Below, one piece after another: positions 19,908 through 44,158 of a stretch of DNA of 64,000 nucleotides (positions within the stretch are counted from its first letter, which is position 1; the number at the start of each line of letters is the position of its first letter). Location of the stretch: NCBI GenBank assembly GCA_020631485.1, contig JAHDHC010000002.1:1-64000 (forward strand), in the 5' to 3' direction. The notes under the pieces are model-generated. The model ran no database searches. It had not been told where the DNA came from and saw only the letters and a program-made list of their open reading frames with translations. Made by a program: the position numbers and the translations under genes. Origin of the DNA: Candidatus Altimarinota bacterium. GTDB lineage: Bacteria; Patescibacteriota; Gracilibacteria; BD1-5; UBA6164.

Positions 19908-22292
19908 CTAGGAGAGAAATGGAACCAATAAGTCTTCTGAGTTGATCTTTACAAGTCAAGATTCTAAGACCGTCTCAAGGTCAGATGTTTTTATTTTTCA
20001 CATGTAAAGTTTTTTAAGATCTCATCAATTATCGAGAAAACTTTCAAGATCCATATACCCATTAAGATACACAACATCTTTATAAAAGATACCATCACTC
20101 GTAAATTTTGGCATTCCACGCTTGAGTCTCAAGATATAGTTAAAAATCTTCTCATAATCGTTATCATAGTACTCCTTCATCTTCTCAAGAAGTTTCTTGT
20201 AACTATGATTCATAGCGTAGTTTATGAAATAGTATCTTTCAAAGATTCCATAATATTTAGGATCTTTGAGACTGAGAAATTTGTTTTGATTGTAGATAGC
20301 TATTCCTTCATCTGTTTCAATATAACGTGCTGTTCCCCTTGAAAAAATTTCAAGAAACTGTTTTTTCCCATTAAGCTTTCGAAGATAATGTCACTCTATC
20401 TCATGTGCGATAATTGATCTTAGTTCTTTTTTTCATACCTGAGCTCATTTTCTCATCATGAGTTTATTTCCTTTCATCGCAAAGCGAGATCCTCACGATC
20501 TTTCAGAAAGTCATAGATGGATACTATATATATGATTGAATTTTTTTACAAAGTCACGTATCTCAGATGTTTTCATAGGCTTTTCTGTATCGAGATCAGA
20601 TTTTGCTTTTATAATCTGGAGTGCATGATCATAATTTTCTGACACTATCTCTCAAAATATCTTTTTTGAATACAAGGTCATTTCTTTTGACTCTCCGTTA
20701 CAAAATGCCTCAAGGAATCCTATCTTATTGAGAACTTCTTCTTTTTTTTCGACATACAGTCAAGCAAGTGGGATTTCGGGTATATCTAGAGAGGCGAGAT
20801 CATTTTTCATCTGAGCAAAATCATGATCCGGATAGTTGTATTCGAGCTCAGGAATATGTTTTCCATCTGATTCTATAAAAAGCTGCTTTTGCTCATCGAC
20901 ATTTTTTGGTATGAGGTATTTCAGGAGAAGAAGCTTCTTGTCAATTGCAAAAATTGCCTTATCAAGTTTTTGTAGTTCATCTTTATAATTTTTTATGATA
21001 CTACTATTTATGACCTTGAGATTGCTCAGTGAGTCAAAATCTGTAGGAAGCTCTCCTTTTTTGTATTTAAAAGGATCTACGAGAAATCCTCTCAGTGATT
21101 TTGACCCAATTATAAGCTTGGTTCAGAGTTCTTTTTTGATGAGGAATCTCATATTTTTTGTCTGCTCGAGAAGTGTCACCTTAAATCTCACGCCTTCTTG
21201 AACATTGAGGAATCAGAGAGTATCACGGACAAAGGCTTCGTCTATATAATTATTTTCGTCTCAAGGTTTTATATCTGCGATATACTTATAGTTTTTTTCT
21301 TTTCTCTCAAGTCCGACATACTCACGAAGTCACAAGATATTTTTTCAGGTGATATTTTTTACACGCTCTTCTAGATCTCAGCTAAAGAGGTCTCTCCCAA
21401 GTCGCACTCATTTTTCTACAGAATTCACCTCAATCCCCTCTACTTTTTTGAGTCGAGTATGAAGTGGTGCATTATTGACAACCTGCACCTCAAGCCCTGG
21501 ACGTATATTCATCTCGAGAAGTAATGGTCCATCATTTTCATCGAGCACTATATCACAGCCAAGATATTGCACTCCAGTGACATACTGTACTTTTACTGCA
21601 AGCTCGAGAATCTTTTCCCAATCTGGGAGTTTTGTACCACGAACATTTCCGATTCCTGGAATAGATTTTATCTGTTTTGAGTTTTGTACTGTATAGGTAA
21701 GTCTCCCATTTCCGATATCTATCCCCGCAGCACAAGCTCCTGAGTGGAGATTGGCTTTTCCTCCTGATTTCTCTGTTGGTATACGGATCATAGCCATGAC
21801 AGGAACACAGTTGAACAAAATGATACGCAAATCAGGTAATCCATACTTTCATAAGAGTGCGATATCACTATTGATAATAATCTTTTTTTCAATCATTGCT
21901 TTGTCCCTATTTCCAGAAAGCGAGAAAAAACCATCTAAAACATTTGAAAGATGTATAATGAGTCTTTTCGGACTAAAAGTATCTCAGGTATTTGTGGTGA
22001 AGATACCATTATGATCTACACTATCAATTACCAGAATTCACTTACCTCAGAAACCGTTGTTTGGCTTTATCACAAAAGGAGGCTCTAGGCTTGCAACCAT
22101 TTCTTCAGTGAGTTCTTCATGTTTTTTGAGTATCTTTAAAGTTTGAGGAACATTGACTCCTTGTTTTTTTAAAAACTCTTTTGTTTTGAGTTTCGAATCA
22201 GCGAGCTCACGAGCAACTTTTCCATTGTATGTTTTTATATACTTGAGACTACGTGCGTTGATTCAGAGTATTCCATATGTTTTAAAAAACAT
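19908..22292 (-). CDS. ATP-grasp amidoligase fused to DUF1704/MATCAP-like metallopeptidase
   Basis: 794 aa with two domains. Residues ~1-310 are an ATP-grasp of the alpha-L-glutamate ligase-like type: FVIKPNNGFGGKGILVI (ATP loop), DLRIILFNCVPVMAMIRIPT, GGKANLHSGACAAGIDI, then GCDIVLDENDGPLLLEMNI (metal-binding acids). Residues ~490-760 match DUF1704 (QEGLA-motif, related to eukaryotic tubulin carboxypeptidases): RSIIAHEIEGHYLRKLNG carries the HExxxH zinc site near residue 628, followed by FSRGTARYIETDEGIAIY. The pairing would put a ligase that adds amino acids to a peptide or polymer and a carboxypeptidase that removes them in one chain. In other bacteria these families are separate neighbouring genes. 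It lies 5 bp downstream of ftsX. The target is unknown. Confidence 0.88.
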
Positions 22293-22297
22293 GTATT

Positions 22298-23296
22298 CTA
22301 GTTATTTTTTAAGTATTTTTTTGATGAGAGAAATCAACTAAAGAGTCATAAAAATGAAAATACAAGAAGCTCAATCAACAAGATATTGTTGAAGTTTTGA
22401 TTAAATATATAAGCAGTAAAGGCACTCGTATCTTGCCCTATCACAAATGAAGCGTTATCTGTTATGACAAAAAATGCAAGTATACTCAGGATGAATGCAA
22501 ACAAAACGTACATAAGTCCCTGGAGAGAAAATGGTCCGTATATAAAGATATTTGAACCTCACACAAGTTTCGTAATATATATCTCATTTCTGTAATAATA
22601 GACAAAATTCCCAATAACAGAATAAACTATTACTCAAATTGAAAGCAAAAATATAGCAATAATAAAATACAGTCCATATTTGAGGGTATTGAGGACGAAA
22701 ATCACTTGATTGATTCTCTCATACTGATTTCTATACGAATATACATTTTCTTGTACTTTTTCATTTTCATTTACCTCGAGTCAAAAATCAAGTATTTTCC
22801 CGTCGTCCACTCATCATGTTCCGGTCAAAGTAAGACGTTCCATCTCTTGTTCTGATCCTAAAAGAAGGTTCGAACGACTAGAAATAACATCATTGAGTTT
22901 CTCATACTCATCCAGATTTACTCACTCTATTGTAATAGTAGGAGGGAGTGGATTATCTCTTTCGAGTATCTTCACCAGTTCTGGATCACGCTGTTTAAGA
23001 TCTTGGAGTACTTCTTCCTTACTATTATAGTTTGCAATTATAGTCGGAGAGACGTCTTGAAGAGCCTTAAGGAAATCAAGTGTTTGTCCTGAGTTTTCCT
23101 TGAGATCATCATTGAGATATAGAGAAATAGTGAGCTTTGAGTTTACCTCACTTATGAGATTGATACTCACATTGTGAAGTATGACGAGTATGTTTATAAA
23201 AAAGATAAGTATCCCCAAAACTAAAACCGAAGAAACACTCAAGAATTTATTCCTGAGTATATTTTTGATCGAATATTTAAAAATTCTTTCTATCAC
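22298..23296 (-). CDS. ftsX: Cell-division protein FtsX (permease-like)
   Basis: 332 aa with the FtsX topology: one N-terminal helix (FLSVSSVLVLGILIFFINIL), a large extracytoplasmic loop (NSKLTISLYLNDDLKENSG, LKQRDPELVKILERDNPLP) and three C-terminal helices. GTG start at 23296 gives MIERIFKYSIKNILRNKF; no ATG lies nearby in frame. FtsEX couples ATP hydrolysis in the cytosol to peptidoglycan hydrolase activation. FtsE is not adjacent: the next gene upstream is divergent, so FtsE must be elsewhere. Confidence 0.85.
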
Positions 23297-23429: not shown

Positions 23430-25703
23430 ATGGTACACGAAGCACAAAATAGTCCAGTAGAGACAAATAATTCTCCTCAATTTTGGGAAATTGATTTCTC
23501 TCGATCACTGCATATGAATGCAGAGGAATTAAGAAATGAATGATTTTTTGATCACAAACTCAAAAAAATGGCTGAATTTCTTGAAACAAATGATAACTCT
23601 TGAATACATCCAAGTATAGAAAAAAATTGGCTCATCAAATATTATTCTAGGATTGAGAGAAATGACGAAAAACTAGCACTCTTAAAAAACCATAGTAAGA
23701 AAAAGGCTTGAGTACACGAAAAAACTCAAGATGCATTGAAAGATGGACAACCAACTCTAGGACAAATCAAAAACTTACTTAATAAATCAGAAATCACCTG
23801 AGATGATCTAAGGCTTCTTGGTACCCATTTTCATGAAAAAATAAGTGCCTTTCTTGAAAATACACAAAAAAATAATCCTGATCAACACAAAGTCTACATG
23901 TCTGATATAGGGGCTCTCAGATCAAAAATAAAAGATTGAGAAAGCATTCCTCCTGATCTGGAGGCATTATTTAAATATGTAGAAAAAACTTCTATTGAAG
24001 GAATCGCAAAGTGATCACTTGATCTCAAATGAAAAACACTACAAGAACAAATTGATATTTATAGCGAAACGGGAGATCAAAATACAAAAAGTAGAATATT
24101 AACTTATATATATTCAGAAAATGTTGAGAAAAAAGGATATTCTATCAAGTTTGAATGAGATGAGTTCTGCTTTAAGGATTCGTCTGGTAAAATAGTAAAA
24201 AATGAGGAATTAACACTTATAACAGAATGTTTTTCAACAGCAGAAATGAAAACATTTATGGAATGGCATAGTAGTGACGAAGGTGAAATGTATAGAAATC
24301 TAAAAATCCCTTGAATATGAGACCTCAAAACTATAACAGCGATGAGTACAGAAGAATCGACAAAATTTTTATCTGAATTCACAAAAACGACAGGAGCAAA
24401 AATTGCAATTCCACTATTAATCTGATGATTCTTATTCTTTTGACCTTGAAAATGATTTAAGTGAATTATAGGAAGACTCCTTACTCTTGGATTATGAGCG
24501 ACACTACTCACAAGTGCAAAAGAAATGTGAGCTGGAGATTGATTAAATAGAATAAAAGGTTGAATAAATGAAGGAATAAGCAATTTCTTATCAGAAGAAT
24601 TTTGAATTACCTGAAAACCCCTAGAGTGGAGGTGAGAAAAAATATATGAAAAAACTCATGCAGATCTCTTAGAATTAAACAAATCAAAATGAGAGAAAAA
24701 AATTCCAGAAAATGAGCTCAGTGAATTGTTCACTATATCATTTCAAACAAAGGTTTTCAGAGAAATGAATAAGTCTCATTTGCAAGCATTTAGAGATGGA
24801 AAACATTCGATTGCAAATATATACTGATACCCTCTTGAAAAATCTAATTGAGAACTCTATACAAAAGAAGAAGTTCAACAATTTATCAAACTCTTAATAG
24901 AAAATGATAAAGATTCTGGAGCAAGAAGTTGATGAGCACTTTTAACAACATACAATTTTAGATGAGAAGCTGAAGAAGTAGAGCTTGAAGGAAATAGTGC
25001 TGATCCAGAAGAATTGAAACTTGAGGCAGGTACTGCAGCCTCAGAAGGAATAACACTTAAGGCAAGTACTGCAACCCCAGAAGGAGTGAAACTTGAGGCA
25101 AGCACTGCTGATCCAGAAAGAGTGAAACTTGAGGCAGGTAGTGCTGGTCCAGAAAGAGTGAAACTTGAAGCAAATAGGGTAGATGCAAAGCCAATCAGTG
25201 ACTCTCATAAATCAAAGAAAAAATGAGAAACAAGAATACCAGAAACATGAGATTCTTGAGAGAATACGAATAAGAAAAATAGTAGTTTGTTTTCAAAAAA
25301 AGATGAAACTAGTTGAAATGTCGCAGAAAAGAAGCAAAAAGAAAATAACGAAAATCCTAATCCACCTGAAGTTGTACTTCCTGAAATTACTGAAGAAGGT
25401 ATAGAAAATGACTATATCAATACAAGTACATCAGAATGAGTTGAAAACAACACATTGAAACCAGATGTTCAAAAAGAAAGAGACGAAATTAGTACTGAAT
25501 TAAAAAAATTTAGTTTCCTTGAACCTCTCATCAAAAAAAGCTCGATAGTAGCAACACTTGAACAAATAAAAAGTGAAAGTAACAAAAAGTTCTTTTTAGA
25601 ACAATTAGAAATAAAAGCACAAGAACTATCGAGAGATAAAAATCATGAAAGACAAGAAGTGTGAATTTATATAATTGGAGCATTAAATGCACTACAATCT
25701 TAA
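23430..25703 (+). CDS. Large unrecognised protein with Gly-rich hydrophobic domain and 12-residue repeats (block protein 1)
   Basis: 757 aa, no signal peptide at the start (MVHEAQNSPVETNNSPQFWE). A charged helical N-terminal half is followed by a glycine-rich hydrophobic segment at residues ~318-367 (IAIPLLIGGFLFFGPGKGFK, then RLLTLGLGATLLTSA). Five to six imperfect 12-residue repeats (VKLEAGTAxPEG type) occupy about residues 517-583. The C-terminal part is Lys/Glu-rich and coiled-coil-like. No family recognised. It begins a set of three genes spaced 8 and 12 bp apart. Many glycines are TGA. Confidence 0.8.
24978..25179 (+). repeat. Tandem 36-bp repeats encoding 12-residue units
   Basis: About 5.5 in-frame copies with consensus [VIL]-K-L-E-A-[GS]-T-A-x-P-E-[GR] inside block protein 1. 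Adjacent copies differ by a few bases, so the array has diverged and is probably slip-generated. Confidence 0.85.
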
Positions 25704-25711
25704 AAAGTAAT

Positions 25712-28700
25712 ATGGAAGGAAATTGAGAAATACTCCAAAGAGTGGAAAATAACACGGATAGTATTCTACCTCTTTTAAGTGAGAACGATAGTATTAGTGA
25801 ATCATATAAAGAATATTTGAATCTTTTGCATACAGTAGGAAAAAGAAATCCTTCAATAGAGGATGCTGAGACAATTATCAATATTGATAGGCAACTTATG
25901 TTTCAGCTCCATAGTATGACTACTGATGGGATAGGTTTTTCTGAAGCATGAGAAGTAAGTGCTATGATTCAAGAAAATATTGATGGACTTTCTGAAATTA
26001 TTAAAAAATATGAACAAGCACAAGAACAAGTAAAAGAAAAATCAATAGAACAAAGAAAAGAAGTTTGAAATCCAGGTGTTTTCAGTTGAAAAAAATGATC
26101 TAAAGAAGGAGAGAATCAAAATTCATCTAATCTTCAATCAAATCCAACTCCTAATACTGAAGTCTTATCAAACCGTGAAACTGAAAAAATAGACAAACTT
26201 GCTGCAGAAACTATTGATCTTGCACATAAAAAAATAAAGACATGAAATGATACTTTTGTGTGATTTGATGATAAATGAAATGGTTGAAGATGAAGTTATC
26301 TAGTAGAACAATTATGGAGAAAATGAGTTTGAGATAATATAATGCCAAACATAAATGTTGAGGACGTATTAAATGACATTAACATGGAAACAATGATCAA
26401 CGGATCAAAAACCTCACTCATAAATATGATAGAAGAACTACAAATGAATTCTAAACTTGATACTGATGCAATGCAGATAGAGTGAGGAAGATTTGTAATT
26501 AATACAGAATTCAACTCAGTTGAAGAAAAACAAGAGCATATAAGTACTCTTCTTCAAGAAATCAATAATGCTCTTAAAAGCCATACTACTAATAATTGGG
26601 AAGAATTTCTCCTCGATGGTAAAGTTACCATATCTCCAAGTGACTTTAATATAGAAACTGACGGATGGTTAAACGAACTTTTTTGATTAGAAGAAAAGTT
26701 AACAAAAGAAATAGATTTCGATTTCCTGAACTTCTCTTCTTTGTTTTTAAAACACATTTTATGAATTGATACAGAAAAAAAAGTGGCTGGAGATTGGTCT
26801 CCTGAAGATATTGCTTATGTCCTAAATTGACCAATACTAATTTTTCGGTTTTTTGTTATTCATAGAATCCCATATGTTTGAAGAATTCGTCCTTTTAAAA
26901 GAGGAAGATACAAAACCGAAGAAGAAAATAAAACCCTGAAAAAAGAAAATGCAGAATTATCGGATGCTGCAAGAGATTCTCTTGAGTCAAGTAAGAATGA
27001 TATTTTAGCAAGATTAGATAATAACCTAACTATTTTTCAGTCTCCAGAATATAAATCAAGACTTAATTCTGATAAAAACATCAAATCACTCAAGGATCTT
27101 AAAAGCAAAATCGAATCGCAAGATGTGACTACATTAGACGATCTTGAAAATTGGGAAACTGAACTTGAAAAACTCACAACTAAAATAAAATGAAAACTTG
27201 GTTGGAGAAAAAATCCTGAGATGGTACAGGCTAAAGCAGCTGCTGAAGTAGAAATAAATAACGGTAGAATAGAAGTTGATATTGCTGGGGAGAGAGTAAA
27301 GCTTCCAGCAACATACAAAGATATAATGGAGGAATTAAAAACTGCCTACAACGAACTAGAAAGCCTAAAATCAACAACTGTTGATCCTGCTGATATATGA
27401 GATCATACAAGAGCAATATTGGAAAAACAAAATGCAATTATTGAAATTTCTAAAAAAATCGGCATCCCTATAAGTGATTGAGATCAACATCATGTTAAAA
27501 AATTATTGCAAAATATGTGAGAAGCACTAAATAATGGGACTCTTCCCCTTCTACACGATCACCCAACCATTGCAGATACAACAAATCCAAATGATCTTGG
27601 AATATTTGATTTTGACGATACCTGGTCAACAGAACTATCAACTACTTGAGTAGATCCTCTTGATTCTAGTACAGCAACTGATGATAGTTCGTCAATGAGC
27701 TGAACTGATACTCTAACTGGTATCGACACTAGCATCGATAATTCGGTAAGCTCTACTAATGAAACTACACCATCATGAATTCCAGTAGCTGACGATGTTA
27801 TTGATTGATCCGCTGATCTATCCGAAGCTGAAAGATATCATGACTTATATGATAGGGCAGCTTCAACAGCACGTTTAAATGGTTTAAATTCAATAGATGA
27901 AATATATTCAAACAGATGAGAAAGACTCATAAGTTGAGATGATATAGATCTAGATACGTTAGAAACAAGCCTAGAAGATAAAATTGGTACTGAAATTTTA
28001 GATTCTGCAACCATAAACAACTATACAAATAAACTTGATACAGCATTAGAAAATTGAGTTTTAGAAATCAAAAATTGAGTATATGAACTTGTTGACTGAA
28101 AAACATTAGATGATTTTGACAAGCACCCAACTCTTCAATCATATATTTGAAAAGCTATTGCTAGTCCAGAATCTGTAAGAAAAGCAAATAGGATTAGTGA
28201 ACAAAGAAAAAATAATCCAATTATTGCAGTTGATACTGATATAGATTTGGACGCAACATTGGAAATAGAAACTTATGTACCTGACAGTGCTTCCAATACT
28301 TCATCAAATCCAACTGATAATTCTTCAACTAGTATAGATTATTGAACTATTGAAAATCCAATAAATGATACGTTTAATACCAATAACCCTGAACTAAATA
28401 CGACACCTAAAATAAGCCCTGAAGTAAAAGAAGAAGCAAATACAGTAATAGAAAGATTACAAAAACAGTTAAGTTATTCTGGAAAAACTCTTGACATTTC
28501 ATGATTACTTAAGAATATAGATGATTTGCTAGAAGCTTGAAATATCGATGATTTTAGTGATAAACTATTGAGTAAATATGGTCAAGGTGAAACAAATATT
28601 CTATCTAAAACAGAAATGAAGAAGCTAGAAACTAGGAATCAAGTTATTGAGTATTTTAATGAAAGGTGAGTTCATGCAAATACAAGACAAAAATTCTTTG

Positions 28701-28801
28701 ATATGATCGCTTGAGAATCAAGTATGGAAGATATAGAGAGAGAATTTAGAGATAGAAAATGGTTAGCTGAGATGGATAAAAACCTAATAAAAGCTTTATA
28801 A
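25712..28801 (+). CDS. Very large unrecognised acidic protein with one membrane segment and coiled coil (block protein 2)
   Basis: 1029 aa, no signal peptide. The first ~370 residues are acidic and helical. One hydrophobic segment (GPILIFRFFVIHRIPYV, around residue 375) is followed by a basic stretch (GRIRPFKRGRYK) and a coiled coil (EEENKTLKKENAELSDAARD). The C-terminal half is Ser/Thr/Asp-rich (DPLDSSTATDDSSSM) with more helical segments to the end. No enzymatic motif was seen. It starts 8 bp after block protein 1 and ends 12 bp before block protein 3, so the three are one operon. Function unknown. Confidence 0.8.
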
Positions 28802-28813
28802 TAATTTTCTTTT

Positions 28814-30955
28814 ATGGATCATGAAAAATCAATGATTGAAACTCCTGTAGAAGAATCTGAAGAGAATAAAGAGTCTGAGATTACAACGACCGTTCCCTGA
28901 TTTGAGAAATTATGACTTTTATGAGTACTACAATCACAGTTTGAAAGCACCCCTCAACAAATAGATTTACAACAACGACTTTCGGATATCATTATTAACA
29001 GATTCGATTGAAAATTACTCTGATTTTCTCTTGAATGAAATTTTTTAATCTGTCATACAAATTGAGAAAAAGGAGCAGAAAAATGGTACATCAATCTTAA
29101 AAAGATAGACCTAGAAGCAATAGAATACCTGAGTGCAGAAGAAATATTTCAAGAAAAAGAAAGAAAAAATCATCAAGTCCATAATGATTTAGAGAAACTT
29201 GATACAGTATTAAATGCTATGGATAGTGTTTTTCATAACAATGAGAAAGAACTTTTTGATTATTTATGAGATGATGATACATATTCAAATAATACACCTA
29301 AAGAAGAGTCCAAATCTAATTTATTTTGAGAAAGTCTTGAATGAAAAAATCTGTTAGAACTTCAATCAATAGCTGACAGTATATTAAATTGACTATGATG
29401 ATTAAAAAATACTATATCAGAAAATCCAAAGTACCAAGATGACTATGTTTGATCACATAAACGATATCTTGAATTTCTTATGTGAATCTGAGATACCTAT
29501 GAGTGATGAGCGAAATATCTCAAAAAAACACCAAAGCAAATAGAAGATTTAGTTGATAATATTTTATCATCTATGTCTATTTCATATTGTCTAGACTACC
29601 TCGTAAATATTCATGAAAAGATAGACTCAAACAATTACCAATCTATATCAGTTGAAAGGTCATACGAACAAATTGCAAGAAAACTACATCTTGAGATTTT
29701 TAAAAAAATGATAAACGATGCAGATGTATCTGATCAAGATTTCCTGAAATTCTCTAAAATAATTACTGGAAGAAATTTTGAAGAAAAATCGGTTCGGAAT
29801 CCAATGTCAAACTCAGAACATGTTGTATACACTATGTCAAATATTGATGACAACCTTAAAGATCCAGAATTAGCAAACAACATATTGCTATATATGATGT
29901 ATAGAGAAAATGGCATAATCTCAAAACTACAACAGGAATCTAGTTTCAAAATTGAAGATAAAAAACTATGAGAAAAGAAGCCAGTAGATATTGCCTCAGG
30001 ACTCGTTTCTAGTATTAATAATAGAAAAATCAGTCTTCCAAATTGAAATTTAGTAGATGGTAATAACTTTGTGAAGGGTATCTTTTGAATTAATATAAAA
30101 GAAATCGAATGAGTTGAATACAAAGATCTTTCTCTAGAGAATAAAATAATTATTTCAACTATGTTTCGCTTAGAGAAAAAAATACGAGTAAAAAACACGA
30201 GATGAGCAAGAACTGGTTATGTTCAAAAAAAACTTGATATACAAGGTTTAGATACTGCCCTTAAAGAAGTCGCTCAAGAATCATACGAACTCATTGGTGA
30301 TTCTTTTAAGGATAGCATGTCTGGTTGATGGTGAAACTTTAATGGTGATCCAGCTTTAAGTTTGGAATGATTATCAGATATTCAAAAAGAATCACTCAAA
30401 CTTTTTAATGACATAAATGGAATAGGAGCGTTTGATTTATCAGATAAATCATGGAAAAAAATGAAAACTTGAGCAAAAATCTGAGCCGTAATTTGACTTG
30501 CACTTCTCGTTTGATGACCGATGGCAGCAGCCTATTCTTCAAGTCTTATCATTCAGTGAGCGACAATAGGTGCCACAGCATCTGTAATATCTATTTGATG
30601 ACTCTGAAAATGATATGATACTAAAAATGAAGCTATAGTTGATATATGATCAGACATTATAGTATGATCAGCAACTTGAGCAATTTGATGAGTAGTAGCC
30701 TGATGACTATGAATATCGTGACAAAGGTTTTTTGCCACAAAATTGCATATAGATGGAAATAAATCATATCTGATATGAAAATGATTATGAGAACAATGAG
30801 CTGCTTACCTTTCGAAATGATGAGTTACAAATGCGTGAATTTTTGCTTGAGATCTTGCTGTGCTATGATTATGGGCGGAGTGACATAGATCGAATTGGTC
30901 AGAAAACAAATTTCACTGAGATTCTATATATTCTTCTCCAGATAAAAAAAAGTAA
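28814..30955 (+). CDS. Large unrecognised protein with C-terminal Gly-zipper-like membrane domain (block protein 3)
   Basis: 713 aa. A charged N-terminal two-thirds (DHEKSMIETPVEESEENKE, then helical) is followed at residues ~549-640 by a strongly hydrophobic, glycine-zipper-like segment dense in TGA codons (GAKIGAVIGLALLVGGPMAA, then GATIGATASVISIGGLGKG, then SATGAIGGVVAGGLGISG), and a basic tail ending SPDKKK. Such Gly-x3-Gly runs are seen in membrane-inserting or pore-forming domains. No signal peptide and no family recognised. Third gene of the block-protein operon; an IS element begins 36 bp after its stop. Confidence 0.8.
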
Positions 30956-30990
30956 ACATCCTGCTTCTATTTTTTATCATTTCACATAAC

Positions 30991-31712
30991 TTGTTACAAT
31001 TGCAGCAATTAGGGTTACATAAAATGGTAAGATAATTCAGTATGAATTACTTACTAAAAAATGTATATGCCTAATTGTTTTAGTATGACAGTATTGAAAT
31101 GAGAATTACTTCAAGACATAATAGATAAGAAGAGAAAAAAGATCCTGTACGTAAAAGATATCCCAGGAAGAGAGTTACAAGTAGATGTAAGTTTTCCATG
31201 GTGATATCAGAGAAAGTTATGTATCTACACAGCGATAGATGACGCTAGTAGGTTTGTAATATCAGAGATATACACAAATCACAATGAATTCACTACTTTG
31301 GATTTTATGAAGAAAATATTGAGCGAGAGTAAATACAGAGTGAGAGCTATCAGAACAGATCAGTGAAGAGAATTTAGTAAACTGATAACTAGGTATCTAG
31401 AGAAACGAAGTATTGAACATAATAAGAATCCTCCTTATACTCCTCAACACAATGGAAAGGTGGAAAGATATCATAGAACTATGAAAGAGAACTGCTGTGT
31501 GTATTGGAACTTCAATGCTGACATATCTGAACTACGATATTCCTTAAAACTATGGACTGATTATTACAATTCACAAAAAAGACACTATTGATTATGAATG
31601 AAATGAGTAACTCCTGAAGAAAAGTTAAAAAACTTTAAAGAAATAAATCCCTTACTTGTGCCATTAATCTAAGAAAATAAAATGTAACCTTGACTCTGCA
31701 ATAGTACAATAA
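30991..31712. mobile_element. Short IS element bounded by imperfect inverted repeats
   Basis: Left end (about 30993-31019) and right end (about 31683-31710) are imperfect inverted repeats sharing TGTAACC, CTGCAAT and GTA blocks in the same order. Only one ORF lies between them, an rve-type transposase lacking its N-terminal part. A target duplication could not be made out. The ~0.72 kb length is shorter than typical IS481/IS3-like elements, so it is probably internally deleted. Confidence 0.7.
31061..31672 (+). pseudogene. IS481/IS3-like transposase, N-terminally truncated
   Basis: 203 codons covering the integrase core (rve): first acid in RELQVDVSFPGGYQRKLCIY, second in IRTDQGREFSK, third in PQHNGKVERYHRTMKENC, followed by TPEEKLKNF. 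The DDE triad is intact, but the N-terminal helix-turn-helix of full-length relatives (usually about 300 aa) is missing; an in-frame TAA sits just before the first ATG. Probably non-autonomous. TGA is used as Gly, so the element is adapted to this code. Confidence 0.8.
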
Positions 31713-31741
31713 TTGACAATTTATGTAAAATAATTTATAAT
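31713..31741 (+). promoter_or_regulatory. Consensus sigma-70 promoter
   Basis: TTGACA (31713-31718), 17-bp spacer, TATAAT (31736-31741): perfect consensus. It lies 77 bp upstream of the first TGA-free island gene, adjacent to the IS right end. Confidence 0.8.
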
Positions 31742-31818
31742 ACAATTACCGTTGTTCGAGAAATTTACTTTTTTAATTAACTTTCCCGAATACACGGGAA
31801 AAAAATGGAGATACAGAT

Positions 31819-32241
31819 ATGTTGTTTTTTAAAGCACTTATTGTCGTAATTGCTATGTGGGGCGGAAATACTTGGGGGCTATATCCCCCGGGTACAGAAC
31901 AACTCGCAAATATTTTTTACGCAGTTGTAGCTGCTGTTATGGCAGCTGCCGCATTCAGTACCAATTGGAAAGATTTAAAAACCTGGAATTACTGGATTGC
32001 TGGTTTTGTAGCAATATTCATGCTACTTACTGCTATGCCAGCAAATATTGTGGTAATGGCAGCACAATACTTTGGAGTATTTTTTGCATTGTTCGTTTTT
32101 AAATGGGCATTCGTAAAAAATCCCATTGTTGCTGTTCCATTCGCAATTGCAACTATTCTCGTTTTAGCATTTGGCATTGTGCCTGTGTTAGATGGGATTC
32201 CTGTACCAAGTGATTTTTCAACTTGGATGAGAGGCTCATAA
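31819..32241 (+). CDS. Four-TM membrane protein, TGA-free (foreign-looking)
   Basis: 140 aa, four hydrophobic helices (LIVVIAMWGGNTWG, FYAVVAAVMAAAAF, YWIAGFVAIFMLLTAM, VPFAIATILVLAFGIVPVL). It contains no TGA codon; all glycines use GGN, unlike neighbouring genes. A Shine-Dalgarno GGAG lies 8 nt before the ATG and a hairpin (TTCCCG/CGGGAA) lies just upstream. No family recognised. The consensus promoter, RBS and GC-rich terminator all point to acquisition from a standard-code bacterium or phage; a misassembled fragment is the alternative. Confidence 0.8.
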   Translation: MLFFKALIVVIAMWGGNTWGLYPPGTEQLANIFYAVVAAVMAAAAFSTNWKDLKTWNYWIAGFVAIFMLLTAMPANIVVMAAQYFGVFFALFVFKWAFVKNPIVAVPFAIATILVLAFGIVPVLDGIPVPSDFSTWMRGS

Positions 32242-32263
32242 AGCTCTCATATCTGTTAAAAGA

Positions 32264-32290
32264 AAATTCCCGGCTTTGCCGGGAATTTTT
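32264..32290 (+). terminator. GC-rich intrinsic terminator
   Basis: AATTCCCGGC-tttGCCGGGAATT followed by T5. More GC-rich than host terminators in this window. Confidence 0.88.
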
Positions 32291-32326
32291 GATATATAAT
32301 TTTTTTCAAGAGAAATAAAGCAACGA

Positions 32327-32360
32327 AAAAGGGGGGATTTTCATCCCCACCTTTATCTTT
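32327..32360 (-). terminator. Intrinsic terminator of the minus-strand island gene
   Basis: On the minus strand GTGGGGAT-gaaa-ATCCCCCC followed by T5, just after the gene's stop at 32383. Confidence 0.75.
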
Positions 32361-32382
32361 TTCCTTTTTCCTTCCTTGGATT

Positions 32383-32835
32383 TTACGATCCACCTCCATC
32401 TAAGTTAAGGATCTGACTCTTATCCAAGAGTCCAAATCGTTTGTAGGCAAGCCAGGCTGTTCGTCGAAGCTCAACACCAGTTAATATCATAAAACCTATA
32501 AGGAACAAAAGTTGTTCAATATAGAATATAAGATCGTTTATATCGTAGGTAAGTCCAATGTGTACCCAAACGCATATCAGAACAATAGAATAGCCAAACG
32601 AGACCATATCTCCCACTGTATCTGATGTTGCTATTTGGGGGTCATTGTAGCTGTTAGCACGATCTGCCGTTTTTATGATTATCATGAAATACAAAAATGA
32701 AAAAACTAAGCAAATTACACCGACTATCAAATAGGTAGTCAAACCTGCTCCCAGGCTTGAAAATAAAGCCATATTTAATCCAACTACGACAACCGATAGG
32801 TATACACCTATGTGCCCAAAAATTAACTTTAACAT
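32383..32835 (-). CDS. Multi-TM membrane protein, TGA-free (foreign-looking)
   Basis: 150 aa from ATG at 32835, chosen because GGGAG lies 6 nt upstream of it; an upstream start (32967) has no RBS. Four hydrophobic helices (IGVYLSVVVVGLNMALFSSL, TTYLIVGVICLVFSFLYFMI, MVSFGYSIVLICVWVHIGL, LLFLIGFMILTGVELR) and a polar C-terminus ending DGGGS. No TGA codon. Convergent with the other island gene and facing it across terminators. No family recognised. Confidence 0.8.
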   Translation of the reverse strand: MLKLIFGHIGVYLSVVVVGLNMALFSSLGAGLTTYLIVGVICLVFSFLYFMIIIKTADRANSYNDPQIATSDTVGDMVSFGYSIVLICVWVHIGLTYDINDLIFYIEQLLFLIGFMILTGVELRRTAWLAYKRFGLLDKSQILNLDGGGS

Positions 32836-32866
32836 TTCGGTCTCCCGAGTCCAAAAAAGTAAATAT

Positions 32867-32895
32867 ATTATAATATATAAATGTATATAAGTCAA
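32867..32895 (-). promoter_or_regulatory. Near-consensus promoter of the minus-strand island gene
   Basis: On the minus strand TTGACT, 17-bp spacer, TATAAT. Together with the RBS it gives a conventional transcription-translation start. Confidence 0.75.
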
Positions 32896-32983
32896 TTTGT
32901 AATCCGATTTTTCATTGTAGATATGTTGTAATAGTATCATATTCGTGATAAAATTATAATAATACACATAATAATATAGTTAT

Positions 32984-34786
32984 ATGCAAGTAGAGCAACT
33001 CAGTCATATGTTTGAAGAAAATGAAATTCAAACAGTACATGAACGCGCAGAAGCGGAATGATGGAAAGAAAAAATGGATAAAATTGAACTTCATCCAGAA
33101 TTTAGACTCACACAACTTCAAGAGAGAATAGATAAAACTACTCAAGACTTAGATACGAGAATATCAAGCTTCAAAGACTTTGTTATTTCTCATCCCCTTG
33201 ACGATTCTGGAGAAATAGTAGAAGTTCCAACAAGCTTTAGTCCTCAAGAGGAATTATTAAAAAAACAAGAAGAATATACAAGTAATTTTAGACAAGAGCT
33301 AAAGAAATCATGAAGATTTTGAATTTGAGGGTTGAAAGTTATTGCTTTTGATTATATACAAAACATGAGAAAAGTGGAAGACAATCCTGATGCGACATGG
33401 CAAGAACGAGCAAAGTGATGGCTTGCATGAGTTCTTTGAAGTATAGGAATGGGAATAATTGGATGAGACTTGTATAAAAAATTTAAAGCAGGTTTTGATT
33501 GATTGAAACTATGAAATAATGATAAAAAATTTGTAGAAAAACCTGAGGCTGATTTAGATAAAGTTGATGAACATAAAAATACCAAATTTAAATTCACCTC
33601 TTCTATCTTTATAAACTTTTTCAAGAATTCAAATGAACTAAGGGTTGCAAATTTACTATGAGAAGATACAGGTGATATTGAAAAAATTACTAACATGTAT
33701 CAATCAATAGTCCATAATCAGTCATTCACCGAACTTACTTTTCAAGAATTGTTAGAAATTAAAGAGAATTGATATAATGAATCGAACGAGATTGTAGCAT
33801 CTCTTCATGAAAAAACTGGATATCCAATACAAAGTATACTTGCCACTATTCGCTTACTTACCGAATGACGCGCATATACTGTTATAGAGGATGTATTTTC
33901 AAAAAAGGACAGTTTAAAAGATACTTATATGTGATTAAAAATTGACGAACTTTTTTTAGCAATGAATGATGAAATCGCTCTACTAAATGACTTATGAAGC
34001 TTTGATATTCTTTCTAGCATCGATCTTCGTAATCCATCTAATATCGACCCGGAAACAGAATCAATGCTTCAAGAAAAAGGTCTAAGTGTACCCATACTCG
34101 CAAGTGCATTTTTGAATGAATGATATATATTTTCGATCAATCCATATGAGCAAATCTTATGATCAATAAAAAATCCAAATACAGAAGAACAAAAAAGAGT
34201 AGAAAATATCTCAAATTTTTGAATGATTATTCAAGAAAGTATGTTTGGAGAAAACAGTATATTTGAAATCTATAAAGTCTCTGATAACGAAAATGATTGA
34301 GATAGCATTTTCGATAAGCTTAATGAATTAACTTTCGAAAAGAGAATTTCTGAGATATTCAGCGGAAACAATGCGTTAAATCTCTGAGAAGTAGTTAAAT
34401 TAAGAATTCTCACATGAGGTGAAACAGAATTTTGATTGTTAAACATAGGGCAACAAACTGCTTTATATCTCACAATTGCAGAGTTTATTCAAGAAAGAGA
34501 ATGAATGGATGCGGCTTGACAGTATTTAACTGCATTATGAGAACGTTCACTGATAAAAGGTGATGATAAAATTCCTGAAGGAGTAAAAGCATTCATATGA
34601 GATTCGCTGAAAACAATGTGAATAGCTGCAGCTGAGGCATGAAAAGAAATACTGGCTTGAATTATTGGTATGTGAAAACAAAACCTTGCTGCTGGAGCAT
34701 GATTTGCAGCATTAACACTTCTTGCACCATGGTTTGCTCAAAGAAAATCACTTGCTTGAATGACAAGGGATCACTTTTCAAGATAA
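32984..34786 (+). CDS. Large unrecognised protein with Gly-rich hydrophobic segments (block protein 4)
   Basis: 600 aa, no signal peptide (MQVEQLSHMFEENEIQTVHE). Charged helical N-terminus, a Gly-rich hydrophobic segment at ~144-163 (AKGGLAGVLGSIGMGIIGGD), a long acidic helical middle, and a C-terminal hydrophobic stretch (LAGIIGMGKQNLAAGAGFAA, then LLAPGFAQRK) at ~545-585. Same style as block proteins 1-3: intracellular start, acidic helices, TGA-rich hydrophobic domain. No family recognised. Convergent with block protein 5. Confidence 0.8.
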
Positions 34787-41165: not shown

Positions 41166-42620
41166 TTGAAAAAACATGAGATAACATTCTCAGTTATAAA
41201 AATTCCTCTTGATTTTCTCACCATTCTCACGAGTTTTTTTATCGCCAAGACTCTCAGGGAAATAACAGATCTCATTCCAGGAGTTCATTTGCCTGTACAG
41301 ACGATTAGTAACGAATCGCTTTTAGTCTTTGCTCTTTTTTGATGAATACTCTGAGTTATAGTATTTGCGATCCATGGGCTCTACTCTATTAAGATATCGC
41401 ACTCAAAGATCAAAGAGCTCCTCGATGTCCTGTGGTATAGTATCTATTTTTTCATGTTCTTCTCACTGTTTGTATACCTCTCAAATGGTATACTCTACTC
41501 TGAGGAGATCCCAAGACTTATAATCTTGTTTAGCACAATTATTGCGAGTATTGGGATCATATGTCAGCGACTTTTGCTGAACTATATTCAGTCTATTTTG
41601 ATCTCTCGTGAAGTTATTAAAAAGCGCAACATCCTGCTTGTTACCAATAAAAAAACTGAGAAAAATAAGAAGATAATTCAAGATATCCAAAAAGCAAAAA
41701 TCTACCATATCATAGGATATATAAATACGCATGAAGTCGATGAAAAAAATCTCAAATACAGAGGATCTGTAGACTGATTTCTCAAACTTCTCGAACAAAG
41801 AGAGATAGATGAAATTCTCGTCATTGACAGTGATTTTTCTAAAGAAGAACTGTACGAAATATGGGACGAATCACGAATATATGGAGTAAGATACAGATAT
41901 GTTACAAATTATTTTGATATGAGTGCACCAAGCACAACACTCAGCCTCATAAGTTCTATCCCAACAATAGAGATAAAAAATACGAATCTCGAAAATTGGG
42001 GGCGAGTATGGAAGCGTATATTTGATATTTTGTTTTCCTTATTTTTTCTCGTTTTGCTCTTCCCTTTTCTTGTTTTTATAGCGATTCTTATAAAAATCGA
42101 AGATCCAAGTGCTCCTGTTATATTCAAAAATAAAAGAGTAGGTTTTAAAGGAAGACATTTTTTTCTCTATAAGTTTCGCTATCTCAAAAAAGAGTTTTGT
42201 ACCAATGAGTGAGACACGCATGCACTCAAAATAGAAGAAGAACTTATCCAAAAACAATCACAAAGAGATTGACCTCTTTATAAGATACAAAATGATCCAC
42301 GTAAAACAAAAATAGGAACATTTATAGAACGATACTCTATAGATGAACTCCCTCAGCTTTACAATGTGATTTTAGGAAATATGAGTCTCGTTTGACCACG
42401 ACCTCATCAGCCACGTGAAGTAGAAAAATACAAACTCTATCAAAAACGTGTCCTCACTGTAAAACCATGAATTACCGGGATGTGACAGATAAACGGGAGA
42501 GACAAAAATACTTTTGATAAAGAGGTGAAACTCGATATATTTTACATAGAAAACTGGAGTTTTGTGCTTGATCTCAAAATCATTATCAAGACCTTTCCTA
42601 TATTATTTCAAAGAAAATAA
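41166..42620 (+). CDS. Polyprenyl-phosphate sugar phosphotransferase (WbaP/exopolysaccharide type)
   Basis: 484 aa. N-terminal hydrophobic region, then a catalytic domain: [20 protein letters not shown] (membrane helix), [54 protein letters not shown] and GITGMGQINGRD, the signatures of initiating sugar transferases that load the first sugar onto undecaprenyl phosphate. A TTG at 41166 keeps the N-terminal membrane region; the next ATG (41454) would remove it. It starts surface-polysaccharide synthesis. TGA supplies Gly in LVGPRP and MGQINGR. Confidence 0.85.
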
Positions 42621-42622
42621 CC

Positions 42623-44158
42623 ATGATACAAAGACTAATTTTACTTTTTTCTCTCTTCTTTTTCGTGCTCAACTGGGCACAAGCAGTAGAAACACCTACA
42701 GAGATTGAGGATACAAGTGTACAAGAACAACTTCAAAACCTCCTGATAGAGTATCCAGAACAGATTTATAAAGATGATGTACTAAATCTCAGTGTCGAAA
42801 ATCTCAAAAATGATCTTGGGCTCTTTTATCCTGATGAAACATTTCGTTTTGAGTGGAATATACGTGGTGCAAACTCGAGAGAATGAGAGGAAATAGAACT
42901 CAAGTTTGAAGAAGCTGGGGAAAAATATATCGTTCTCAATATCTTTCGTGAAAGTGGGGAGCTCTTAAAGAGTCAAGAGCTCGAAGTACTCGTCTATAGT
43001 ACGAGTGTTCCTCTTATCATCCAAGAAAGTTTCCGTACGCAACAGATCGATATTTTCGAGAGAAACGCAGAAGTACAATGAATCTATTTTTACACTTCTG
43101 GAATAGAAAAAGAAAAGATTGAAGAGATAAATATACTTTCAGTCATAGAAAACTACAGAAGGATTAACGGAGAAAAATCTGACTACCTCACTATCTGGGG
43201 AGATAGAGAGTTTTCTGCGAGTATCATCTCCAAGCTTGGAAGCGAGCTTTCTGCAAATGGTTCAAACATGAAGTTTAAAGTATTTGTCATATCTCCCTTT
43301 AATCTTCAGCTTCTCGAAAACTATCTCAAAAACTTTATCGTTGAAAAACCATGGCTAGAAAAGATCGTTCTCACAAATGAAGAAGGAAAGTTTCAAACGC
43401 ACAAAGCTCCTCTCTCAATAGAACTTCTCCAAAAAAATCTACAAGAAAATGGTTTTGAATATACAGATATAAACATAGAAGAATCATGAATAAATGCCTT
43501 CTTTTTTATCTCAAAGTTTATCAATAATCTTTCAAATAATTCCTATACCAGTGAGTGAATCTATCTCATCATACTCATCCCCTTTTTATTTACGCTTCTT
43601 GTTATACTCAAACATCTCATATGACTTTCACCTATTTGAGTCCTCGTTCCTATTGGATTTACTCTTATGATTTTCAAGATAGGACTGCTTGCAAGCTTTC
43701 TATTTATGCTCATATTTATACTCCTCAATGTCGTGCTTGCAAGGATAGTAAATACACAAACACTCCTCTATACTCCTAAAATAAGCTTTCTACTCATCAT
43801 AAATATAGTCTTTGCGATACTAGTCACAAACCTTCTCAGCGAATACGGGATTGCAGACTTAAGTCTTTGAAATAGCCTCTTTATCATTATCTACATCATC
43901 ATACTTGAGAAACTGATAAATGTGATCCTCTCAAAAGAGTTCAATGAATACAGACAAGCTCTGATGAACTCACTCTTTATCTGACTTATCTGATACCTCA
44001 TATTTTCATCTGAAACAATTACCAGTTTCATCCTCAGTTATCCTGAAACTATACTTATTCTCATCCCCATAAACTTTTTTATCTGAAAATTTAGTGGACT
44101 CAGAGTAACAGAGTACTTTCGTTTCAGAGAAGTAATTCGCAGTGTAGAAGAAGAGTAA
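42623..44158 (+). CDS. 7TM membrane protein (7TM_transglut/UUP1-like)
   Basis: 511 aa. Signal segment (RLILLFSLFFFVLNWAQA), extracytoplasmic beta-rich domain (to ~300), then seven helices with YLIILIPFLFTLLVILKHLIG, GVLVPIGFTLMIFKIGLLA and a C-terminal FIGKFSGLRVTEYFRFRE that matches the 7TM_transglut family. In other bacteria this family is a neighbour of the alpha-L-glutamate ligase-like ATP-grasp, here found at 19.9-22.3 kb. It begins 2 bp after the sugar transferase stop. The usual inactive transglutaminase domain in front is not clear. Confidence 0.75.

Follow-up and report, generated by a model that had tools for sequence, protein, structure and literature searches.

A ligase-peptidase fusion in a Patescibacterial genome may record the replacement of one tag-removing protease by another

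The fused gene and its genetic code

The window, i.e., the whole 64,000-nucleotide stretch of DNA analysed here (Candidatus Altimarinota bacterium, contig JAHDHC010000002.1), carries a single minus-strand gene in which three predicted domains are joined. Features of the gene and its putative partners are as follows, with residue numbers referring to the fused protein.

19908..22292, minus strand: fused gene (ATP-grasp ligase, degenerate retropepsin and MATCAP peptidase), 794 aa, code 25
21423..22280, minus strand: predicted ATP-grasp ligase domain of the RloC/TIGR02291/PF14397 type, residues ~5-290; conserved residues intact; Foldseek matches to RimK
21057..21365, minus strand: predicted degenerate retropepsin-like domain of the RloA/RimB type, residues ~310-412; D-T-G replaced by K-P-G; best Foldseek match RloA (9g58)
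19953..20960, minus strand: predicted MATCAP/DUF1704/QEGLA metallocarboxypeptidase domain, residues ~445-780; best Foldseek match human MATCAP
20388..20405, minus strand: HEIEGH metal-binding motif, residues 630-635; candidate third ligand E662 in DEG
22298..23296, minus strand: ftsX, immediately upstream of the fused gene (5-bp gap); adjacency also seen in 14 same-family genomes
41166..42620, plus strand: polyprenyl glycosylphosphotransferase (EPS_sugtrans), directly upstream of rloB
42623..44158, plus strand: RloB homologue (7TM_transglut, PF14402), 511 aa; co-occurring membrane partner, unlinked here

The fused open reading frame contains 23 TGA codons, read as glycine, and no TAA or TAG codons (code 25). 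Code 11 breaks the frame and leaves only fragments, so the finding of a fused chain depends on this recoding. The recoding is supported by standard-code genomes of the same class, which encode single-chain homologues of 768 to 840 aa with zero stops, and by TGA readthrough in the fused gene of same-family genomes (9 to 57 TGA codons). The stop-free standard-code chains likewise rule out a missed start or two separate genes, which the earlier note had named as a way in which its reading could fail. Profile searches matched both the ligase and the DUF1704 peptidase that the note had placed in one 794-aa chain, and the fusion is confirmed as real. One related locus (L115; G106:C4:26775-29079) has the fused gene as two overlapping frames of 578 and 299 aa that divide inside the MATCAP domain, as a result of either a frameshift or an assembly error. 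A PADLOC search gave no match.

By its sequence, the chain consists of three domains rather than two. A full-length model was obtained with a pLDDT of 88 and a pTM of 0.53; given the latter value, the arrangement of the domains in this model is uncertain. The best solved structures matching the model in Foldseek were human MATCAP and RimK, and a PDB sequence search with the fused protein also returned human MATCAP (KIAA0895-like) and RimK.

Ligase and metallocarboxypeptidase domains

The N-terminal domain matched the Pfam family ATPgrasp_ST (PF14397) above the cut-off (E value 5.5e-59, 200 bits, residues 14-285) and the NCBIfam model TIGR02291 below its trusted cut-off of 314.2 (E value 1.8e-77, 260.5 bits, residues 4-288). 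The ATP-grasp nucleotide- and metal-binding residues K76, D247, E260, and N262 were invariant in 24 fused homologues. The domain would attach amino acids to a target, probably as a run of glutamates, although the added residue could also be a different amino acid.

The C-terminal domain matched MATCAP/DUF1704 (PF08014; E value 5.6e-27, residues 472-775; 95.1 bits versus a cut-off of 27) and, below the trusted cut-off, the QEGLA model TIGR02421 (E value 1.1e-33, residues 445-775). Its metallopeptidase residues H630, E631, H635, and E662 were invariant in the same 24 homologues. Neither enzyme domain has thus lost its catalytic residues, the other way in which the earlier note said that its reading could fail. 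In the wider sample, the HExxxH motif and the EG glutamate (E-E/D/Q-G motif) were intact in 71 of 71 assessable fused chains, including 13 whose motifs escaped a narrow regular expression and were read by eye. Judged by these predicted catalytic residues, the MATCAP domain is an intact metallocarboxypeptidase. The window genome contains one match to MATCAP and one to RimK-like ATP-grasp proteins, both in the fused gene. A literature search for DUF1704 or QEGLA together with ATP-grasp found nothing useful.

A degenerate retropepsin between the two enzymes

No Pfam family was assigned to residues ~310-412, and nowhere in the window protein did PF05618 (Zn_protease; RimB/RloA) give an E value as low as 0.1. 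Relatives with two domains, from the wider phylum, do exceed the PF05618 cut-off in this region, which in them contains Asp-Thr-Gly-Ala; the catalytic stretch reads AKIDTGA in these relatives versus ADIKPGDE in the window. A middle-domain profile built solely from fused proteins without D[TS]G aligned with Gammaproteobacterial RloA (hhalign probability 97.1, E value 1.4e-10) and with the two-domain proteins (probability 99.9, E value 2.5e-30), with the catalytic position in register in both cases. When modelled alone with AlphaFold2, the middle domain gave a pLDDT of 86.8 and a pTM of 0.78, and the best PDB match of this model was Pseudomonas RloA (9g58), followed by Ddi1 retroviral-protease-like domains. 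A PDB sequence search with the retropepsin domain of another locus, L030, returned weak matches (best E value, 0.0029). From its sequence and predicted fold, the middle domain is thus a degenerate relative of RloA/RimB and not an active member of the family.

Distribution of the fusion and loss of the aspartic active site

In Gammaproteobacteria, rloA, rloB, and rloC are neighbours, and the middle-domain profile detects RloA there. In many Patescibacteria, rloB is followed by a ligase-retropepsin fusion. A separate MATCAP gene overlaps or adjoins the ligase-retropepsin gene at six loci (L075, L076, L086, L087, L116, and L218), and in a tree of MATCAP domains, L075, L087, and L116 have fused proteins among their nearest rows, with long branches that make this placement uncertain. 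The claim that ligase and peptidase are separate neighbouring genes in other bacteria was borne out in other Patescibacteria. At the Gammaproteobacterial loci examined, the ligase stands beside rloA and rloB, and the 3 to 9 kb covered there contained no MATCAP gene. The triple chain was found in Gracilibacteria, where the earlier note had suggested looking for it, and also in Peregrinibacteria and Peribacteria, as well as in a small number of records whose titles name Dojkabacteria, Magasanikbacteria, and Parcubacteria. With 73 non-redundant MATCAP-fused chains, extending beyond SR1/Gracilibacteria, the fusion is less unusual than had been supposed.

Other arrangements were seen as well. Ligase-plus-MATCAP chains of 772 to 864 aa beside rloB, with a middle part unmatched by the retropepsin profile, occur at L241, L243, L244, and L251 and at the order-level loci L238-L248, L253, and L254. 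A different triple fusion of 921 aa (L044:2908-5673, minus strand) combines the ligase and a retropepsin with an intact DTGA with a second ATP-grasp domain, and an 854-aa chain at L054:3119-5683 (plus strand) looks like the same type. At L037:5060-6073 (plus strand) and similar loci (f26 type), the gene after the ligase-retropepsin fusion encodes an ATP-grasp protein resembling cyanophycin synthetase, and MATCAP lies a few kilobases away on the other strand in this group.

The state of the aspartic active site was surveyed in 177 non-redundant relatives. D[T/S]G was present in all 87 ligase-retropepsin chains without a linked MATCAP. Among the 73 MATCAP-fused chains, a D[TS]G string occurred in the linker of three, and in two of these (L094 and L232) it fell at the active-site column; a third fused case, L100, was left out because it nearly duplicates L098. 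At the loci with an adjacent separate MATCAP gene, the motif was DTG in three and NTG in three (L076, L086, and L218), the latter being the same change as in the inactive RloA control D48N (PMC12239564). In 15 of the 73 fused proteins (order-level relatives), the middle domain was beyond profile recognition while ligase and MATCAP persisted; in 23 of the other 58, the catalytic Asp was left without the full D[TS]G. The basic residues K46, R114, and R137 of RloA were placed by motif spacing, and by this inferred placement an Arg aligned to R137 was present in 71/87 unfused versus 0/58 fused chains.

Loss of D[TS]G was strongly associated with fusion when counted without phylogenetic correction (Fisher's exact test, 2.3e-42). 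Fusion required at least two changes on the ligase tree, and D[TS]G was lost at least six times, in each case on a MATCAP-associated branch. These branches account for 46% of the tree length, and the probability that six losses would fall there by chance is about 0.01. An independent-pairs test, for which there were too few pairs, was not significant. The association between decay and fusion is therefore strong in numbers, but phylogenetically thin, as few independent events appear to lie behind it. Searches for PF05618 elsewhere in the genome were negative in the window genome and in all 33 fused genomes tested, and positive in 10 of 11 unfused genomes, although PF05618 is insensitive and a diverged eraser could escape it.

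RloB, FtsX, and the genomic neighbourhood

Across 59 relatives, the enzyme and RloB were both present in 33 and both absent in 24, with a single genome for each in which only one was found (Fisher's exact test, 2.8e-14). RloB alone was found in G288, which is 87% complete, and the enzyme alone was found in G327, although RloB is picked up there by a custom profile. The RloB homologues matched NF052267 below the cut-off. At most Patescibacterial loci, rloB lies directly upstream of the ligase gene. In the window, it is 20 kb from the fused gene on the opposite strand, so the two do not form one operon. In the window's family, rloB is paired not with the ligase gene but with an exopolysaccharide-type polyprenyl glycosylphosphotransferase, which was seen at 12 loci (L259-L265, L268, L272, L273, L277, and L281).

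The fused gene itself follows ftsX in this family, with gaps of 2 to 101 bp in 14 genomes and the window. The adjacency from which the earlier note drew its hint of a role at the cell envelope or division site is thus real and conserved. However, 34 of 35 family genomes encode FtsX, whether they have the fused gene or lack it, which rules it out as the main and specific partner. Because RloB tracks the gene and FtsX is present regardless, the putative link to the envelope rests on RloB.

Several further genes were observed in these neighbourhoods. A penicillin-binding protein of the PBP1A family is encoded beside rloB and the ligase-retropepsin gene at L034:1547-4375 (minus strand), and genes of the same size recur in L042, L043, L046, and L047. 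In the window, four large plus-strand open reading frames (756, 1046, 713, and 600 aa; positions 23433-34786) follow one another behind the divergent promoter region of ftsX, and none of the four had a Pfam match.

Comparison with known systems

All three domains have counterparts in known systems. In Pseudomonas aeruginosa, RloA cleaves polyglutamate, and rloB and rloC belong to the same pathway; rloB and rloC mutations rescue the rloA-triple mutant. The inactive RloA controls were D48N and D48A, and K46, R114, and R137 contact polyglutamate (PMC12239564). The window genome shares with this Rlo system an RloC-type ATP-grasp ligase, an RloA-type retropepsin fold, and RloB, a seven-transmembrane protein with an inactive transglutaminase domain (PMC12239564). 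In P. aeruginosa, the proteins are encoded by separate genes and RloA is secreted and active, whereas in the window the ligase, the apparently dead retropepsin, and MATCAP form one chain and rloB is unlinked.

An ATP-grasp ligase is likewise paired with a retropepsin in the case of RimK, a glutamate ligase, and RimB, which cleaves polyglutamate; the RimBK hybrid carries both in a single protein. RimB takes glutamates off RpsF and stimulates polyglutamate synthesis by RimK, and the hybrid is active (PMC11957791). In RimBK, the RimB part is N terminal and proteolytically active; in the window protein, the retropepsin is C terminal to the ligase, appears decayed, and is followed by MATCAP, and the ligase is of the TIGR02291 type, not RimK. 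With the eukaryotic MATCAP/TMCP enzymes (KIAA0895L and KIAA0895), the window protein shares the HExxxH metallocarboxypeptidase fold and the EG glutamate; TMCP1 and TMCP2 shorten polyglutamate chains and leave the branch-point glutamate (PMC10499314). The eukaryotic enzymes act on tubulin tails and have no ligase fusion, unlike the MATCAP domain described here.

In the tubulin code, C-terminal residues are written by ATP-grasp-fold TTL/TTLL enzymes and erased by MATCAP and CCP metallocarboxypeptidases. These are separate proteins acting on tubulin, whereas the window encodes one chain; the likeness is an analogy that does not imply a tubulin-like substrate.

A proposed exchange of erasers

Taken together, the literature on RimB/RimK, RloA/RloB/RloC, and the TMCPs makes one reading of these data the best supported. 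We consider the chances somewhat better than even that, in an Rlo-type glutamate-adding system, a MATCAP domain has replaced the aspartic protease that cleaved polyglutamate, within the same chain. The fused protein would then be a bifunctional writer and eraser of a tag in an Rlo-type envelope system. Its RloC-like, RimK-related N-terminal domain would spend ATP to add amino acids, likeliest as a chain of glutamates, to a cytosolic acceptor that works together with the membrane protein RloB. In other Patescibacteria, the retropepsin C terminal to the ligase keeps its catalytic Asp, along with basic residues that have been linked to the cleavage of polyglutamate. MATCAP would first have been encoded by an overlapping or adjacent gene and later fused behind the retropepsin. 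After fusion, the aspartic site would have decayed and MATCAP taken over the shortening of the chain from its C terminus, with the decayed retropepsin retained as a structural or regulatory module. The earlier idea that one protein both writes and erases a tag is supported by these data, but its two-domain layout was incomplete, as the decayed RloA/RimB-type retropepsin between ligase and MATCAP suggests the replacement of one eraser by another.

Some observations speak against such an exchange, among them the thin phylogenetic basis of the association and the catalytic Asp that is still present in 23 of 58 fused proteins. As three of the adjacent-gene loci keep DTG, decay need not accompany an intact MATCAP gene next door. 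The retropepsin is also retained in some unfused genomes that encode MATCAP elsewhere, so that MATCAP may serve a different purpose. MATCAP-family enzymes remove tyrosine or other C-terminal residues, not glutamate alone (PMC10499314), and the two domains could work in sequence rather than in opposition, with MATCAP trimming a leader or a C-terminal residue off the acceptor and the ligase extending the exposed end. The intact motifs of ligase and MATCAP fit either order. We nevertheless regard this sequential scheme as unlikely, since MATCAP appears alongside the decay of an eraser that cleaves polyglutamate, suggesting that the two share a role, and unfused systems do without MATCAP.

It is less likely still that the decayed retropepsin is the regulatory core, kept to activate the ligase allosterically or to mediate its dimerization, and that MATCAP, as a general peptidase, was fused for the sake of co-regulation rather than to erase what the ligase makes. 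RimB does stimulate the ATPase activity and polyglutamate synthesis of RimK (PMC11957791), and the retropepsin fold is kept with good model confidence despite the lost active site. In the 15 order-level proteins, however, the middle region has diverged past profile recognition while ligase and MATCAP persist, and thus neither its sequence nor a regulatory role seems tightly held. The least likely of the readings we weighed is ordinary decay by descent, in which one old fusion arose in a lineage that could already do without its retropepsin, and the link between lost D[TS]G and MATCAP has no functional meaning. The small number of fusion changes on the ligase tree (just two) and the nonsignificant independent-pairs test fit such a history. 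Against it stand the six active-site changes confined to MATCAP-associated branches, the three unfused adjacent-gene loci that decayed separately, and the two fused proteins that retain D[TS]G, which indicate that in places decay came after fusion.

Returning to the exchange of erasers, its fullest form is one that we hold more tentatively, at somewhat less than even confidence. The chain may both write and erase a poly-amino-acid tag by itself, with a dead aspartic protease sitting between the ligase it once opposed and an unrelated metallocarboxypeptidase that took over. It would then be a one-molecule bacterial counterpart of the TTL/TTLL-MATCAP cycle and give MATCAP its first prokaryotic role.

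If this is correct, the family would provide a natural record of one eraser displacing another within a single polypeptide, with the intermediates still alive in different lineages: an adjacent gene, a fusion with a partly intact site, and a fusion with a dead one. One recombinant protein, taken from a relative that uses the standard code, would be enough to ask directly what RloC adds and to what. The MATCAP/DUF1704 family, whose eukaryotic members detyrosinate and deglutamylate tubulin, would gain a bacterial function, and RloB-linked glutamylation of an envelope acceptor would be placed in the minimal Patescibacteria.
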